Shown here piece by piece: positions 1,442-7,020 of a stretch of DNA of 64,000 nt; positions within the stretch are counted from its first letter, which is position 1, and every line of letters starts with the position of its first letter. The stretch comes from Paenibacillus sp. JZ16. GTDB lineage: Bacteria; Bacillota; Bacilli; Paenibacillales; Paenibacillaceae. The notes beneath the pieces were generated by a model that had not been told where the DNA came from, ran no database searches, and was given only the letters and a program-made list of their open reading frames with translations. The DNA is taken from NCBI RefSeq assembly GCF_015326965.1, contig NZ_CP017659.1, positions 7,357,844-7,421,843 on the forward strand. Reading direction: 5' to 3'. Made by a program: the position numbers and the translations under genes.

Positions 1442-1506
1442 CCGATAACACTATTTTCACGCATCGGGCATACGCCCTCGGTCCGGTAGAAGATAGAACG
1501 TTAGGC
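1442..1506 (+). repeat. attC-like recombination site 1
   Basis: The 65-bp element runs from a left box CCGATAAC to a right box GTTAGGC that fits the integron R' consensus GTTRRRY, followed by GAAA. It carries the left-arm signature TTTTCACGC and a GGGC-ATAC-GCCC stem. It sits directly behind the methyltransferase gene in the orientation expected for a cassette attC site. The left box is degenerate, and the call is by resemblance to the other copies. Confidence 0.6.
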
Positions 1507-1589
1507 GAAATCCTCAAAGTATTCAGAATAGGTGGGGAAGCATTAAATTGCTTCCTAACAGTAGAACTATTTTCAGAAGGGACCTGCTG

Positions 1590-1820
1590 ATGAGAAGAAG
1601 ATATTCTATTGAAAAAGCAGAGTGGTCAGAAACAAGAGAAAAAAAGTATCAACAAGACTGTAGAGATATTGTATTTAAGTTCGATGATGAGCTTTTACAG
1701 CAAGATGACGCCGTTTATTTAAATAGAAAAGAAGGACAAACTATGGTGATAAAGCCTTTAAATCAAAAAACATTTTGGTACGAAATATGGTTAAAACTCA
1801 AAGACATCTATAATACATAA
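1590..1820 (+). CDS. Small hypothetical protein
   Basis: This is a 76-residue basic/acidic protein with many K, R, E and Q residues and a C-terminal aromatic stretch (FWYEIWLKLKDIYN). I do not recognise a family. The ATG at 1590 is preferred because AGAAGGGA lies about seven bases upstream; the frame is open from a TTG at 1548. It is a lone gene between two attC-like repeats, as expected for one cassette. Confidence 0.5.
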   Translation: MRRRYSIEKAEWSETREKKYQQDCRDIVFKFDDELLQQDDAVYLNRKEGQTMVIKPLNQKTFWYEIWLKLKDIYNT

Positions 1821-1907
1821 TGAAACATAGAATTTAAAAGACAGTTTAAAACCTAGGCAGATCTGATTGAAGATCCTTGTGAGCAACATCAGGAAGTCGA
1901 GGACTAC

Positions 1908-2003
1908 GTCTAACATAATATTCACGCTGCGGACTTTCGTCCTTGGCCCAGCATTCGCCGGGCGCTCAGCAGACGCTGAGTCGTGAATACAGAAACGTTA
2001 GAT
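1908..2003 (+). repeat. attC-like recombination site 2 (best-formed copy)
   Basis: The 96-bp element has a left box GTCTAAC (1908-1914) that fits RYYYAAC and a right box GTTAGAT (1997-2003) that fits GTTRRRY. Inner arms ATTCACG (1920-1926) and CGTGAAT (1982-1988) are perfectly inverted, and a GC-rich imperfect hairpin lies between them. GAA follows the right box. This is the architecture of an integron attC site and the clearest member of the family here. Confidence 0.72.
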
Positions 2004-2042
2004 GAATTCGCTAGAAGATAATGAAAGTAGGTGCAATCATAG

Positions 2043-2798
2043 GTGTATCTAAACCAGTTTCATGCAATGATTGGATCACTCTTTGGGGAATTACTTATTA
2101 AATTTAAAGATCAAGGGGAATATGGTTTCACCAATAAAACTCAAAGAGAATGTAAACGAATTGGCTATTCAACGAATATTACACCGGAATTGATTGAACA
2201 AGCATATGAGAAAAAGATCGATATAATGATAACTCATCATGACGCTTGGAATTTCATCTATGGAATGAAGGACGAGTGCGTGCGCAGGCTCAAAGCTTAT
2301 GATATTGCCCACTTCTTCATACATTTACCTTTGGACTATGCTAATTTTGGTACAGGACAGTCGTTATTAAATGAAATCGGTCAAATACAAATGATCCAAG
2401 GATCATACTATTTGAATGGAGAAAGTCGAATCGGGATAGGAGAATTGCTTGAGACAATTACATTCAATGAGTTAGTGACTCGATTGAAATTGCAATGCAA
2501 TGAAGAGGTAAAGGCTTGGAACTTTGGAACGCAGTCAATTCAGCGAATCGGAATCCTTACGGGAGCAGGCGATGGTACGAAACATGTAAGAGAAGCTTTG
2601 GAAGCACAGTGTGATGTCTATATAACAGGGGAGAAGACGTTATATACAATTCAGTATGCTGAATTTTCAAAGATCAATTTGATTGTAGGGAGCCACACAT
2701 TTACCGAGGTGTTTGGAGTTCGATCGCTTGCAAATAAAGTCCGAGAGTCGTTTCCGGAAATCGAAATTGTATACATTGAAGAAAAACATATGGAATAG
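2043..2798 (+). CDS. Nif3-like dinuclear metal-centre protein (DUF34/NIF3 family)
   Basis: The 251-residue protein has the family's N-terminal metal-binding motif THHDAW (His65-His66) and the C-terminal motif GSHTFTEVFGVRSLA near residue 220, both supplying ligands of the di-metal site. The length matches short Nif3 proteins. Family members are metal-dependent hydrolase-like or GTP cyclohydrolase-like proteins of unsettled function, so no reaction is assigned. The start is a GTG 40 bases after the right box of attC-like site 2, with only a weak ribosome site (AGTAGGTG) at a long distance. It is a typical single-gene cassette, followed 28 bases later by another repeat. Confidence 0.85.
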   Translation: MYLNQFHAMIGSLFGELLIKFKDQGEYGFTNKTQRECKRIGYSTNITPELIEQAYEKKIDIMITHHDAWNFIYGMKDECVRRLKAYDIAHFFIHLPLDYANFGTGQSLLNEIGQIQMIQGSYYLNGESRIGIGELLETITFNELVTRLKLQCNEEVKAWNFGTQSIQRIGILTGAGDGTKHVREALEAQCDVYITGEKTLYTIQYAEFSKINLIVGSHTFTEVFGVRSLANKVRESFPEIEIVYIEEKHME

Positions 2799-2825
2799 AT
2801 TGTGAGGGTAATTCAAAGCGACTTT

Positions 2826-2924
2826 GACTAACAGCATTCACGCATCGGCTGACGTTCTCGGCCGCAGACGTGGATTCGAGGAAGTGATTGCCGCGGCAAC
2901 TCCCTACGGGAGTTCGTGAGTGCG
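2826..2924 (+). repeat. attC-like recombination site 3 (right box lost)
   Basis: The left box GACTAAC is followed by CATTCACGCATCGGC, the family's left-arm signature, and the right arm TTCGTGAGTGCG lies about 75 bases later. The terminal GTTRRRY box is absent, so the site looks partly deleted; the adjoining sequence is a gene remnant. Confidence 0.5.
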
Positions 2925-2982
2925 AGGAAGCCAAAAGCTATTTAGACAATAAATACAAACCAGATGGATCATATCTGGACTT

Positions 2983-3102
2983 GAAATCTTTAGGATAACC
3001 CATATTCATGTAAGGCAAGCAGGTAGCTGGTCTGAACAATTCGATTTATTATTTCGAGATTACTTAAGAACTCATGAAGAATATGTAAGGGAGAACGAAA
3101 CA
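2983..3102 (+). pseudogene. GrpB-family protein remnant (C-terminal fragment)
   Basis: Translated in the frame of the following gene, this stretch gives THIHVRQAGSWSEQFDLLF then RDYLRTHEEYV. This is the signature of the GrpB/UPF0157 nucleotidyltransferase-like family, which normally has about 170 residues. Only about 40 residues remain, and an in-frame stop lies upstream (2950-2952). The remnant reads in frame straight into the ATG of the HAD gene at 3103. I infer a cassette whose front was lost together with the right end of attC-like site 3. Confidence 0.65.
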
Positions 3103-3723
3103 ATGAAAAAGTACATACTCTTCGATCATGATGGTGTTCTGGTTGATACAGAATACTGGTATTACAAAGCGGGAGAACGCGCTCTGGCTGACATTGGATT
3201 TACCTTGGATAAAGATCAATACCTCCGCGACATGACCCAGTCGCTGGGCACTTGGTCCCAAGCTAGGGCGGCAGGCATTAATGAACAGACGATAAGCAAG
3301 CAGCGTGAGGTCCGCAACGTCTATTATCAGGAATATCTAAGAACAGAAACCATAGAGATTGAAGGCGTAGTTGAAACTCTAGCCGAACTGTCAAAGTACG
3401 TCCGCATGGCCATCGTGACGACTGCAAAACGTGCGGATTTTCAACTTATTCACGAAAAGCGCCAGATTAGACAATTCATGGATTTCGTCCTTGTTCGAGA
3501 AGACTATGAGCGCACCAAGCCGCACCCGGAACCATACTTGACCGGCCTAAAGCGCTTGGGAGCTACCAAAGAAGAGACCCTGGTTGTAGAGGATTCAAAC
3601 AGAGGGTTGAACTCAGCCGTGGCGGCTGGTATCGACTGTGTTATTGTCCATAACGACTTCACCAAAACACATGACTTCTCACAGGCCAGCTATCGAATCA
3701 AGACTATTCTGAAAGTAACCTGA
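3103..3723 (+). CDS. HAD-superfamily hydrolase (beta-phosphoglucomutase-like)
   Basis: The 206-residue protein has the HAD motif I FDHDGVLVDTE with catalytic Asp8 and Asp10, motif II around Thr106-Thr107 (VTTAKR), motif III Lys139 in RTKPHPEPY, and motif IV VVEDSNRG with Asp164. A helical cap follows motif I, as in the beta-phosphoglucomutase/phosphoglycolate phosphatase subgroup. It is cytoplasmic, probably a small phosphatase or phosphomutase; the substrate is unknown. The ATG is preceded by AGGGAG at 3088-3093 and is in frame with the GrpB remnant. A degenerate attC-like repeat follows. Confidence 0.88.
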   Translation: MKKYILFDHDGVLVDTEYWYYKAGERALADIGFTLDKDQYLRDMTQSLGTWSQARAAGINEQTISKQREVRNVYYQEYLRTETIEIEGVVETLAELSKYVRMAIVTTAKRADFQLIHEKRQIRQFMDFVLVREDYERTKPHPEPYLTGLKRLGATKEETLVVEDSNRGLNSAVAAGIDCVIVHNDFTKTHDFSQASYRIKTILKVT

Positions 3724-3744
3724 GAGGGCATTCGCCAGCACGTC

Positions 3745-3881
3745 CCGTACTCACGTTTTAAATGATATAAGTGATTGGGTTTACAAGATTTCATGAACGG
3801 TCAGGAATAGATCACCTACCGCGTCACGGCCGCTCTTTGGGCTTAAGGTGATGGGACGTCGTGAACACTACAACGTTTTGT
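3745..3881 (+). repeat. attC-like recombination site 4 (degenerate)
   Basis: The right arm CGTCGTGAACACTACAACG is followed by GTTTTGTGAA, which keeps the GTT-N4-GAA pattern seen at the other sites. The left arm is reduced to GTACTCACG without the TAAC box. A further inverted pair, CACCTA with TTAAGGTG, lies in the centre. It is recognised mainly from its position behind the HAD gene and its right arm. Confidence 0.45.
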
Positions 3882-3926
3882 GAATCATAGTGTGATATTT
3901 AATGAAAGTATCTAAAGGAGTCCTGT

Positions 3927-4502
3927 ATGAAGACAATTATCTATATGGTTAGGCATGGGGAATCACCATATAATGAAGGAAATGAAAGAATAAGAGGGCT
4001 TACCCCAACAGGAAAGGCTGATATTGAAAAAGTAACGAAGTTACTTATAGGTGAAGGAATAGATAAGATTATATCAAGTCCTTATACTCGAGCAATTCTT
4101 AGTGTTGAGGGATTGGCCAAGCACTTAAAGTTAGATATTGAGGTATTTGAAAATCTTAGAGAACGTCATTTTGCATCTTATATTATTGATAATGCAGAGT
4201 TAATTTCTAGTATCAGAGAGAGTTTTAATGACCCTGATTATACCTTGCTGGGTGGAGAGTCTAATGCAGATTGTCAGAAAAGAGCAATCTCAGTTCTAAA
4301 GCTCATATTTAAAGAGCACAGAGGGAAGAGAATAGCAATTGGGACTCATGGTCTTGTAATGACTTTGATGATGAATCATTTTGATTCAGCTTTTGGCTTG
4401 GAGTTTTTGAATCAATTAAAGAAACCAGATATTTATAAAATGCAGTTTGATGACTTAGAATTAGAAGAGGTAACGAGAATGTGGAATGACCAGATTTCTT
4501 AA
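3927..4502 (+). CDS. Histidine phosphatase family protein (phosphoglycerate mutase-like)
   Basis: The 191-residue protein carries the phosphohistidine motif RHGES (residues 9-13, His10), the second basic site SPYTRA with Arg55, an acidic residue in LRER (Glu79) and the second catalytic histidine in GTHG (His141). These are the four catalytic elements of branch-1 histidine phosphatases. The substrate cannot be predicted from sequence alone. The start has a strong AAAGGAG nine bases upstream. The gene is AT-rich relative to the backbone genes and stands alone between repeats. Confidence 0.9.
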   Translation: MKTIIYMVRHGESPYNEGNERIRGLTPTGKADIEKVTKLLIGEGIDKIISSPYTRAILSVEGLAKHLKLDIEVFENLRERHFASYIIDNAELISSIRESFNDPDYTLLGGESNADCQKRAISVLKLIFKEHRGKRIAIGTHGLVMTLMMNHFDSAFGLEFLNQLKKPDIYKMQFDDLELEEVTRMWNDQIS

Positions 4503-4528
4503 GGTTTATCGAAGAGGACTGCGGTATT

Positions 4529-4562
4529 ACATAACAGAGTATTCGCTACGGGGACAAGCCCC
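4529..4562 (+). repeat. attC-like left half-site 5
   Basis: ACATAACAGAGTATTCGC followed by a GGGGACAAGCCCC hairpin matches the left arm of the family. No matching right arm or GTTRRRY box is found before the next gene, so only half of the site survives. Confidence 0.45.
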
Positions 4563-4588
4563 TTAAATATATTTTGGGAGGCGACTTC

Positions 4589-4642
4589 ATGAAGCGTTTA
4601 GAAGACCATTATAAAACCTCGATTAAAGGAATTGAAGCTTAA
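4589..4642 (+). CDS. 17-codon open frame immediately before the Nudix gene
   Basis: An ATG with a good ribosome site (GGGAGG, nine bases upstream) opens a 17-codon frame encoding MKRLEDHYKTSIKGIEA. Its TAA stop directly touches the ATG of the Nudix gene (TAAATG). It may be a remnant of another cassette gene's N-terminus or a short leader that couples translation to the Nudix gene, which has no ribosome site of its own. Whether the peptide itself matters is unknown. Confidence 0.35.
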   Translation: MKRLEDHYKTSIKGIEA

Positions 4643-5191
4643 ATGCAGTTGATTAGAAAAATTACTGATCATGAGATTCTCGGAGGCCCTATTAAATTGA
4701 TAGAGCCAGTGTCACGATTTGCTTCAAGAGGTGTGTTAATTGATGGAGCGTTGAATGTAGCCATGATGTACATGTCAAAACCTGATCTATACAAATTGCC
4801 AGGAGGAGGAATCGAAGAAAAAGAAACAAAAGAGCAGTCTTTCTTAAGGGAGATTAAAGAAGAGACTGGATATGAGGCAGAATCAACTTATGAACTGGGG
4901 TATATTGAAGAACATAAAGCAAAAAATAACTTTTTGCAGATATCTTATTGTTGGATAGCAAATGTAAGGAAAAGGATATGCAGTTTAAACCTAAGTGAAA
5001 GTGAAAAACAACTCGGTATGACGGTTAAATGGATGACATTAGATGAGGCATTAGAAGTAATGAGCGAGTCACTTATACATTGTAATGAGTACTCAACAAA
5101 ATTCATGATTATACGAGATAAGACAATCCTTGAAATTGCTTACGAAATAATAACAAAGAGTGAAAAGAATATTTGGGGTAACTCGAAGTAG
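4643..5191 (+). CDS. Nudix hydrolase
   Basis: The 182-residue protein has a complete Nudix box: Gly55, Glu61, Arg69-Glu70, Glu73-Glu74 and Gly76 fit GX5EX7REUXEEXGU. The enzyme should hydrolyse a nucleoside diphosphate linked to another moiety using a divalent metal; the substrate is unknown. The start ATG directly abuts the stop of a 17-codon frame, so it may depend on coupled translation. A long-form attC-like repeat begins 10 bases after its stop. Confidence 0.88.
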   Translation: MQLIRKITDHEILGGPIKLIEPVSRFASRGVLIDGALNVAMMYMSKPDLYKLPGGGIEEKETKEQSFLREIKEETGYEAESTYELGYIEEHKAKNNFLQISYCWIANVRKRICSLNLSESEKQLGMTVKWMTLDEALEVMSESLIHCNEYSTKFMIIRDKTILEIAYEIITKSEKNIWGNSK

Positions 5192-5200
5192 TCCTAACCT

Positions 5201-5371
5201 CCTATAACAAAGTATTCACGTAGCGGGCCGACTGACGTCGTCCCTTGGTCCGCCCGAAGCATTTCATGGAAGCTGAATCAGGCGGACAACCCTGACCGAC
5301 TAACCGCATCGCGGCCGGCTCCTCCAGAGCCTTAGTCGGTGAGGATTCGTAGATACACATAAACGTTAACT
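5201..5371 (+). repeat. attC-like recombination site 6 (long form with nested hairpin)
   Basis: The left box CTATAAC is followed by AAAGTATTCACGTAGCGGGC, and the right end is AAACGTTAACTGAAA. The roughly 170-bp centre contains a second inverted repeat, CCGACTAA (5296-5303) against TTAGTCGG (5332-5339). The same nested arrangement occurs in the right array at 61541-61689. VCR-type long attC sites are the closest known analogy. Confidence 0.6.
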
Positions 5372-5412
5372 GAAATTGCTGTCAATGTACATAAAAGAAA
5401 GGAATAAAAACA

Positions 5413-6018
5413 ATGAATAAATCTGCTTTTACAATTGCAGTAAGTGGACCATCTGGTTCAGGTAAGAGTACATTAACAAAGCAATTAAGAGATAAACTTG
5501 TTGATGCAATCTCATTCCACTTTGATGACTATGCTTCAACTAATAAATATCCAGATGATTTTGTGGAGTGGTTGGAAAAAGGTGCCGACCCTAAATTAGT
5601 TCAAAACCCAAATTTTAATAGAGACTTAAATGAGTTGGTTCAAGGCAAATCGATAAAACTACCTAACAACCAAATGGTAAAATCAGAAAAATACATTATA
5701 GTCGAAGAACCATTCGGTAGAGGTCGGGAAGGAATGGCCGAATTAATTGATTTCGTAATCTGTATTGATATTCCATTAGAGGTAGCACTGGCTCGTAGGA
5801 TTTTAAGAGGGATACAAAATGCTGAGTACTCTCCAAGTGAAACTTTAAAAAACTTCGAAGAATATTTGTCTCAGTATCTTATCGTAGTGCGAAATTTATA
5901 CCAAGCTATAAATTCAAATGTCATGGCCGATTGTGATTTAATTGTATCTGGTCTTGAACCAATGGATGTAATTACGGACAAAATAATAATAGAGCTTGAG
6001 AAACGAAGTATTATATAA
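5413..6018 (+). CDS. P-loop kinase, uridine-kinase-like
   Basis: The 201-residue protein starts with a Walker A motif GPSGSGKST (residues 12-20) and shows the acidic FHFDDY segment typical of nucleoside or uridine kinase-like P-loop proteins. The EEPFGRGR region and the arginine-rich LARRILRG probably form the lid. It should phosphorylate a small metabolite using ATP; the substrate is unknown. The ribosome site AAAGGAA lies about nine bases upstream. A second open frame, an HD-domain remnant, continues in the same frame immediately after its stop codon. Confidence 0.82.
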   Translation: MNKSAFTIAVSGPSGSGKSTLTKQLRDKLVDAISFHFDDYASTNKYPDDFVEWLEKGADPKLVQNPNFNRDLNELVQGKSIKLPNNQMVKSEKYIIVEEPFGRGREGMAELIDFVICIDIPLEVALARRILRGIQNAEYSPSETLKNFEEYLSQYLIVVRNLYQAINSNVMADCDLIVSGLEPMDVITDKIIIELEKRSII

Positions 6019-6255
6019 CTCAAAGAAGAAGAGATACTAGAAGCTATTAATTTATTTACAAGAGCTAAGGAAGACAACTATGAAGAATTCATTGATAAAA
6101 CATTAAAGAACCGAATAGCTAGAAATGTAAAGATAGCTGATATTAAAGAGAATATGAATTCATCAAGAATACAAGATCCTTCAGAACAAGATTACCTGCG
6201 ACTCGAGAAATATAAAAGAGCATTGGAAAGACTGGAAAGACAATTTGAAAGTTAA
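6019..6255 (+). pseudogene. HD-domain phosphohydrolase-like C-terminal remnant
   Basis: Seventy-eight codons without a start encode NYEEFIDKTLKNRIARNVKI then ADIKENMNSSRI and DYLRLEKYKRALERLERQF. This pattern is familiar from the C-terminal half of small bacterial HD/SpoT-hydrolase-like proteins (the 'ARxVKIADLxHNMD' motif). It begins at the base after the kinase stop and stays in the same frame, so it looks like two cassette genes joined with loss of the first half of the second one. An attC-like half-site follows within 20 bases. Confidence 0.6.
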
Positions 6256-6271
6256 TCAAGAAGAGGGTATA

Positions 6272-6300
6272 GGCGTAACACCATGTTCACGCTTCGGGCC
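6272..6300 (+). repeat. attC-like left half-site 7
   Basis: GGCGTAACACCATGTTCACG followed by CTTCGGGCC matches the left arm of the family and follows the HD remnant, as an attC should. No right arm with GTTRRRY is visible before the VOC gene. Confidence 0.5.
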
Positions 6301-6341
6301 ATTCACCCACAGAAAATTTGTACACGAGGAGAAAAAAACTA

Positions 6342-6796
6342 TGGAAAAAAATAAGTTACTAAGAATGGACAATGTCGGCATCGTTGTAGAATCCCTTGAT
6401 GACGCAATTTCTTTCTTCGAGGAGATTGGCTTGACCCTCGAAGGGCGAACGACTGTCGAAGGGGAATGGGCTGGTCGCGTAACCGGACTAGGTACTCAGT
6501 GTGTAGAGATTGCTATGATGGTTACCCCAGATGGCCACAGCCGACTTGAACTTTCGCGATTTCTCACCCCACCTACGATATCCGATCACCGGACGGCTCC
6601 TGTAAACTCCCTTGGTTATTTACGCGTCATGTTCACAGTTCAAAACATTGATGAGATGGTATCCAGACTCACTACTAAGCATGGTGCGCAACTCGTTGGC
6701 GAAATGGTTCAATACGAGGATTCGTATCGGCTCTGCTACATTCGTGGAACCGAAGGACTTCTAATCGGTTTGGCGGAACAACTCGGTAACAAATAA
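6342..6796 (+). CDS. VOC-superfamily protein (glyoxalase/bleomycin-resistance fold)
   Basis: The 151-residue protein has two repeated beta-alpha-beta-beta-beta modules: an N-terminal MDNVGIVVESLDDAISFFEE typical of VOC proteins, and a second half starting near YLRVMFTVQNIDEMVSRL. Candidate metal ligands include Glu residues at the strand ends (LELS and the C-terminal GTEGLLIGLAE). These proteins act as dioxygenases, isomerases or resistance-binding proteins; none can be chosen here. The ATG at 6342 has ACGAGGAG nine bases upstream and replaces a longer open frame that begins inside the attC-like half-site. Confidence 0.85.
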
Positions 6797-6904
6797 ATAA
6801 GTGACGTTTTTTTTGAAAAAACTCTACTGAAATATACGTTAATAGAGTAAAAAAACAAAAAAAGTAAAGCTGTGTGGAAGTATCTCGAAGAAATTGGGTG
6901 CGTC

Positions 6905-7020
6905 ATGTAACAGCGTATTCACGCATTGAGTATTCGCCAATGGTCCGGGGATGTTATTGGCTTGGAAGTATAGGCAGCGGACACTTCAATATTCGTCGGA
7001 CGTCGTGAATACTGATTACG
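6905..7020 (+). repeat. attC-like recombination site 8
   Basis: The left box ATGTAAC (6905-6911) is followed by AGCGTATTCACGCATTGAG, and the right arm CGTCGTGAATAC starts at 7001. The right box is degenerate (ATTACGG). The rest of the 6797-7127 interval shows an AT-rich stretch after the VOC gene with no recognisable gene. Confidence 0.55.

Follow-up and report, generated by a model that had tools for sequence, protein, structure and literature searches.

How gene cassettes of the integron type come to stand in a Paenibacillus chromosome is the question raised by a stretch of 64,000 nucleotides from Paenibacillus sp. JZ16 (contig NZ_CP017659.1, positions 7,357,844–7,421,843; hereafter the window), at the beginning of which small + strand genes are followed by repeats resembling attC, the sites of integron cassettes. 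According to the IntegronFinder 2.0 survey (PMC9024848), one complete integron, that of Limnochorda pilosa, and a few clusters of attC sites lacking integron-integrases (CALIN) are recorded in Firmicutes, and the near absence of integrons from this phylum is called intriguing. Our analysis points with high probability to an array of cassettes with attC-like sites, moved as circles at G^TT in a reaction catalysed by a tyrosine recombinase of a type with a HARP-like N-terminal part. As read from the DNA, the order is integrase, attI-like site and cassettes, all in one direction. A recombinase of this HARP family likely runs a second, overlooked type of integron in many bacteria and some archaea.

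The array is 35 kb long and starts approximately 27.6 kb upstream of the window, which contains its distal end; the sites are placed on the + strand from 7,330,196 to 7,364,751 of the 7.42-Mb genome. The eight complete or partial repeats that an earlier note had described in the window were all recovered, on the + strand at 1446, 1911, 2829, ~3722–3880, 4532, 5205, 6276 and 6908, each located 3' of a small + strand gene, and the copy at 1908–2003 is complete with both core boxes present, as claimed. The strict boxes RYYYAAC and GTTRRRY, applicable to that copy, do not fit most copies; NNATAAC and GTTATNN are the letters met most often. In the stretch searched, 27 of 44 left-box candidates passed a filter on both arms, three of the 27 being inside the window, and TAACNNNNTATTCACG was found in 17 exact copies genome-wide, 11 of them on the + strand within 7,330,196–7,364,751. 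A loose pattern (up to 3 mismatches) was not enriched in the window alone (60 matches vs 51.4 expected, 19/100 shuffles being equally high), and the window yielded no Rfam match at gathering scores.

Just ahead of the first site, at 7,328,624–7,329,596, lies the remnant of a tyrosine recombinase gene with an interrupted frame and a missing N-terminal start, and between this remnant and the array there is an attI-like site (G of G^TT at 7,329,691). Both elements stand where the array begins, beyond the window, and to call the cluster possibly integrase-less was wrong or incomplete; the proposed whole-genome search for a recombinase of the IntI type did lead to a tyrosine recombinase beside the array, which is not IntI. 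No second copy of the recombinase was found in this genome at E ≤ 1e-40 with a profile of five relatives. With a broken integrase and, at this threshold, no other copy, the array is probably frozen and its distal sites are decaying. Additional attI-like words occur off the main array at 525,466 (1 mismatch), 720,689 and 775,350, and behind the word at 775 kb, on the - strand, come genes carrying two full attC-like sites; such stray words may be secondary insertions or leftovers of other platforms.

In a free circular cassette, the bases behind G^TT at the cassette head pair with the cassette's own R'', and after integration the head adjoins the previous site. Complementarity between R'' and head thus marks a pairing that is possible only in the circular cassette. 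It was assessed over the three outer R'' bases at the 100 sites of ten arrays that are preceded by another site, and compared with 2000 within-array shuffles. R'' matched the head of its own cassette at 225/300 positions vs 138/300 for its own neighbouring R', the shuffles having a mean of 128 and a maximum of 159, and 55 of the 100 sites matched the head perfectly vs 12 with the neighbouring R'. Similar values were obtained for 20 Paenibacillaceae loci, some of which may coincide with genomes behind the ten arrays (head 271/342 vs 139 for R'; shuffles, mean 152 and maximum 186), and a canonical Vibrio integron used as control gave 24/24 matches with the head vs 8/24 with R'.

Unit boundaries were also visible in the comparison of related genomes. 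The 104 units of the ten arrays include 8 homologous pairs, counted both across arrays and inside single ones; in 7/8, homology sets in with the G of GTT that opens the unit, and neither the left (0/8) nor the right (0/8) neighbours of the homologous units are homologous. When compared without gaps, identity 5' of this G is at the level of random pairs, and it rises to 0.91 at +4 to +20. Genomes G000, G069 and G070 have common DNA upstream of the integrase (92.6–93.8% in the longest pieces), while of the 26 units of G000 2 have a counterpart in G070 and none has one among the 9 G069 units compared. The upstream DNA being common and the units mostly not, the platform persists and its contents change. 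The attC-like orientation and the cassette boundaries at G/TT support the earlier note in its proposal that this Paenibacillus-type chromosome carries a cassette array of the integron type.

The same signature was sought in the best 80 loci from a scan of named genomes. These belong first to Paenibacillus, Cohnella and Saccharibacillus, where intact relatives of the recombinase stand ahead of similar arrays, then to other Bacillota, Spirochaetota, Nitrospirota, Bacteroidota and archaeal bins. In 50 of the 80 loci (those with enough DNA and a detected site), the exact 7-mer head expected for the first cassette from the R'' of the first site was sought behind the integrase, and was found in 20/24 Paenibacillaceae loci and 22/26 loci of other taxa, as compared with means of 2.5 and 2.3 and maxima of 8 and 7 for permuted R'' boxes. 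Behind attI, the first-cassette head agreed at 68/75 outer bases (25 loci, 20/25 perfect), a count that has no shuffle beside it. The 22 positive loci of other taxa include Bacillota, Nitrospirota, Nitrospinota, Atribacteria, Bacteroidota and Spirochaetota, as well as bins named Micrarchaeota and Altarchaeum; since most of these loci are metagenome bins, the taxon names depend on binning by others. It is this first-cassette test, rather than the statistic on successive sites, that carries the case for other taxa; in the latter statistic, Brucepastera reached 15/15. The contig behind the match was 300 bases or shorter in 16/80 loci, which would be expected if repeat arrays break draft assemblies.

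Among 100 genomes of the same genus, TAACANNRTATTCACGC with at most 1 mismatch had 968 matches vs 89 for the pattern read backward. The N-terminal piece of the recombinase was detected in 26/100 of them at E ≤ 1e-10 (own genome included) and the five-sequence recombinase profile in 31/100 at E ≤ 1e-40. At least 5 pattern matches were present in all 26 genomes with an integrase match vs 27/74 of the others (Fisher 2.5e-9). Nine other genomes, chosen among those with integrase matches, were opened, and in 9/9 attC-like left boxes follow downstream of the integrase on the same strand (G088, whose contig breaks off there, has a single site); 7/9 also contain an attI-like word with no more than 2 substitutions, the exceptions being G049 and G014. 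In the plasmid collection, 341 records matched at E ≤ 1e-40, of which 11 cover 80% of the query, all with less than 60% identity; the phage collection yielded 13 records at E ≤ 1e-30, of which none reached 80% coverage.

The attC-like sites have the canonical layout of R'', L'', L' and R' boxes with the crossover at G^TT, and the canonical integron arrangement, attI adjoining the integrase with cassettes behind, is likewise present. The invariance of AAC and GTT carries no weight, because both were required when the sites were collected. Across 107 sites, the L arms pair without gaps, over 8/8 bases in 63 sites and 7/8 in 37, and the R'-L' spacer exceeds the R''-L'' spacer by 3 bases in 99/107. 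Despite the distance between them, L'' and L' covary, with 53/104 arm departures matched by the partner (shuffles, mean 10.2 and maximum 19). Extrahelical bases, which folding of the sites had been expected to reveal, were not borne out in the L arm, where a one-base bulge improves pairing in 4/107 sites vs 9/9 Vibrio control sites. Conversely, our gapless detector found 1 site per strand in the Vibrio region, as canonical sites carry the bulge and are therefore missed. The bottom strand folds more stably than the top in 92/107 sites, which is suggestive only. A LexA-like box before the integrase was seen in 0/21 loci vs 7/1050 control windows.

The recombinase departs from IntI as well. IntI integrases are described as having an additional domain of ~30 residues (PMC7784347), the IntI-specific stretch is placed at positions 186–245 of VchIntIA (PMC3108266), and the extra helix of IntI is reported to contact the extrahelical base of attC (PMC3053210). 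The alignment of an intact relative of our recombinase with IntI4 consists of two blocks, which are 26 residues apart in the relative vs 68 in IntI4, and the gap between the blocks covers the stretch 186–245. The distance from KG.KDR to H.LRH is 67–73 residues in the 66/80 loci where both motifs could be located, the other 14 allowing no measurement. No match over the cut-off of the IntI model TIGR02249 was obtained in the 100 same-genus genomes (0/100) or in the own genome, and the matches listed for this model break near profile positions 180 and 234. Since both the extra domain of the enzyme and the extrahelical base of the site are lacking, lock and key differ together.

At the N-terminus, HARP (PF07443) was matched by 16/31 segments at E ≤ 1 (best 6.4e-5), and the N-terminal profile of the family matches the HARP domain of SMARCAL1 (4o66) at E 4.7e-5. 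According to PMC4035279, annealing helicase activity depends on HARP domains, which can also endow other SNF2 proteins with it. The XerA model NF040815 (cut-off 220) was passed by two intact relatives with 227.6 and 225.3 bits, and the best PDB sequence match of the intact relative was IntI4. The predicted structure of an intact relative (predicted local distance difference test, pLDDT, 87.0; predicted template modelling score, pTM, 0.60) had IntI4 as top match in Foldseek and an archaeal Xer in VIA-align; HARP structures were absent among the matches listed by the two programs, lists that barely test the residues before 97. In a tree of 41 recombinases, the IntI sequences group as a separate clade (98/87), whose long branch sits among the sequences of the HARP family; the latter are placed closer to IntI than to the host XerD, with the branching order open and the long branches flagged. 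A related recombinase of ~290 residues without the HARP part was seen in several places of one genome, G013 (contig C1, 4,596,750, and others).

We propose that the cassettes were moved as circles by crossing-over at G^TT and that the catalyst was most likely a HARP-type tyrosine recombinase, whose broken gene stands with an attI-like site at the start of the row. The intact recombinase would bind the folded bottom strand of attC in a circular cassette, cut it at G^TT and join it to double-stranded attI. In SMARCAL1, HARP acts in annealing and branch migration; here, the HARP part would hold the hairpin, a task that falls to the extra domain in IntI, and the 3-base surplus in one R-L spacer may distinguish the strands in place of the extrahelical base.

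Two other readings accept the cassettes and differ as to how they were moved. A canonical IntI integron or a leftover CALIN, with the local recombinase as a bystander, would fit the layout of the sites and their circular-cassette signature, both of which are those of integrons, and IntI4 is the best PDB match by sequence and the top match in Foldseek; yet TIGR02249 stays below its cut-off in the own genome and in all 100 same-genus genomes, the sites do without the canonical bulge (4/107 vs 9/9), and the local recombinase directly precedes attI in locus after locus, which leaves this explanation very improbable. Somewhat less improbable, though still unlikely, is that integron-like cassettes are recombined as double strands, by the HARP recombinase or by the host XerC/XerD, with no folding of a strand. 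The L arms are gapless palindromes free of the extrahelical base that IntI reads, and the catalytic half of the enzyme scores as XerA, as this explanation would have it; only one half of each site would then be needed, however, whereas the far-apart L'' and L' covary well above the shuffled maximum (53/104 vs 19) and R'' tracks the R' with which it would pair in the circle. As to dispersed palindromic repeats or terminators, of the repetitive extragenic palindromic (REP) or miniature inverted-repeat transposable element (MITE) type and placed behind genes by chance, the sites are indeed hairpins behind genes and single copies exist elsewhere in the genome. Such elements fail to explain the clustering on one strand behind one family of recombinases or the exchange of units with ends at GTT, and the head-R'' pairing, for which the canonical control behaved as expected, speaks against them; we regard this origin as scarcely credible.

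Circular transfer by a HARP-type recombinase, which we prefer, has points against it as well. It is supported by sequence alone, recombination itself not having been observed, and the integrase is broken in this genome and in several relatives of its clade. In the JZ16 array itself, the head match (55/81 vs 38/81) is weaker than elsewhere, which would fit decayed in-between sites being missed, an explanation that is not proven. The successive-site statistic in other taxa is modest (65/102; shuffles, mean 54.0 and maximum 68), the expected first-cassette head is absent in 4/24 Paenibacillaceae and 4/26 other loci, and attI is unmatched in 5/33. No HARP match at E ≤ 1 was obtained for 15 of the 31 N-terminal segments, the first included. 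Furthermore, of the 74 genomes lacking an integrase match at E ≤ 1e-10, 27 nevertheless have at least 5 pattern matches; in the search with the five-sequence profile some of these show integrase pieces and others none. Integrases with stops or split were noted in G000, G007, G010, G016, G024, G069 and G079, in which the arrays persist, so that the integrase genes and the arrays seem not to decay at the same pace.

In the window, two of the eight sites are complete with both core boxes. That at 1908–2003 (+) consists of R'' GTCTAAC, L'' TATTCACG, L' CGTGAATA and R' GTTAGAT, and the long site at 5202–5371 (+) has R'' CTATAAC and R' GTTAACT. The site at 1443–1506 (+) has lost its centre and retains R'' CGATAAC (1443–1449), TTTTCACG and R' GTTAGGC (1500–1506), and the last site of the array, at 6905–7020 (+), has legible L arms and a damaged R' in which GTTA has become ATTA. 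The remaining four are half sites or decayed, all on the + strand: left halves are present at 4529–4560 (ACATAACAGAGTATTCGC) and 6273–6306 (GCGTAACACCATGTTCACG), and the two decayed sites, partly judged by eye, are located at 2826–2934 (GACTAACAGCATTCACG ... TTCGTGAGTGC, with the GTT of R' gone) and at 3722–3880, where the right half GACGTCGTGAACACTACAACGTTTT is still legible.

The genes between these sites are ordinary single enzymes, Pfam matches being obtained for 7 of the 10 proteins scanned. All on the + strand, they encode a 162-aa cassette protein without Pfam match (2–490; over 692 nt, its DNA shares 89.2% identity with part of the G070 array), a class I methyltransferase (563–1378; PF08241, 1.1e-16), a small 75-aa protein without Pfam match (1593–1820), a DUF34/NIF3 protein (2043–2798; PF01784, 4.4e-32), a HAD hydrolase (3103–3723; PF13419, 1.5e-33), a histidine phosphatase (3927–4502; PF00300, 8.5e-26), a NUDIX hydrolase (4643–5191; PF00293, 1.3e-10), a uridine kinase-like P-loop kinase (5413–6018; PF00485, 1.6e-9) and a protein of the glyoxalase/VOC family (6341–6796; PF13669, 4.2e-7). 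Cassettes upstream in the array, outside the window, encode SIR2_2, TIR_2, HNH and Hypoth_Ymh proteins, which suggests a stock of phage-defence genes; among 10 chosen cargo proteins, 5 match known or candidate phage-defence models at E ≤ 1e-4.

Integrons are recognised by IntI. The arrays of the integron type that are common in one Paenibacillus-type genus start with a recombinase without the domain that marks IntI, which suggests that gene-capture platforms of a large class, some of them with cargo that resembles defence genes, escape surveys keyed to IntI. As lock and key differ together, the requirements of a recombinase acting on a folded single strand become directly testable. We consider it reasonably probable, with less confidence than for the array itself, that HARP integrons form a second lineage in at least 8 phyla of bacteria and archaea, in which HARP replaces the IntI domain and the attC lock has altered along with its key, and that they are the missing platforms behind many integrase-less attC clusters. 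Our literature search, the scope of which left out most subscription papers and all bioRxiv preprints, found no description of HARP recombinases with cassette arrays, and the available parts of PMC9668308, PMC8618304, PMC8352920 and PMC8946536 give no account of such a system.

The array works like an integron, yet it fails two tests that define IntI integrons, the extra domain and the extrahelical base. With the CALIN reported from a few Firmicutes genera (PMC9024848) it shares an attC-like cluster without IntI over the cut-off, and it differs from them in that its start is occupied by an attI-like site and a recombinase belonging to another family. XerA, described in PMC8371274 as resolving chromosome dimers, has neither the HARP-like N-terminal part nor a cassette array as partner; the NCBIfam name of NF040815 is 'site-specific tyrosine recombinase/integron integrase'. 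The N-terminal part resembles the HARP domain of SMARCAL1 (PF07443, 4o66) by its profile match, but is fused to a recombinase instead of an SNF2 ATPase. The present system differs from the Vibrio IntI integron in several respects: integrase and cassettes run in the same direction, whereas in the Vibrio control region they diverge; a LexA-like box ahead of the integrase was found in 0/21 loci; the recombinase lacks the IntI-specific region and has a HARP-like N-terminal part; and the L arm of the sites has no extrahelical base, a spacer surplus of 3 bases (99/107) being present instead. What the two have in common is the order of integrase, attI and cassettes, the AAC and GTT boxes, the pairing of head and R'', and a long array of accessory genes.

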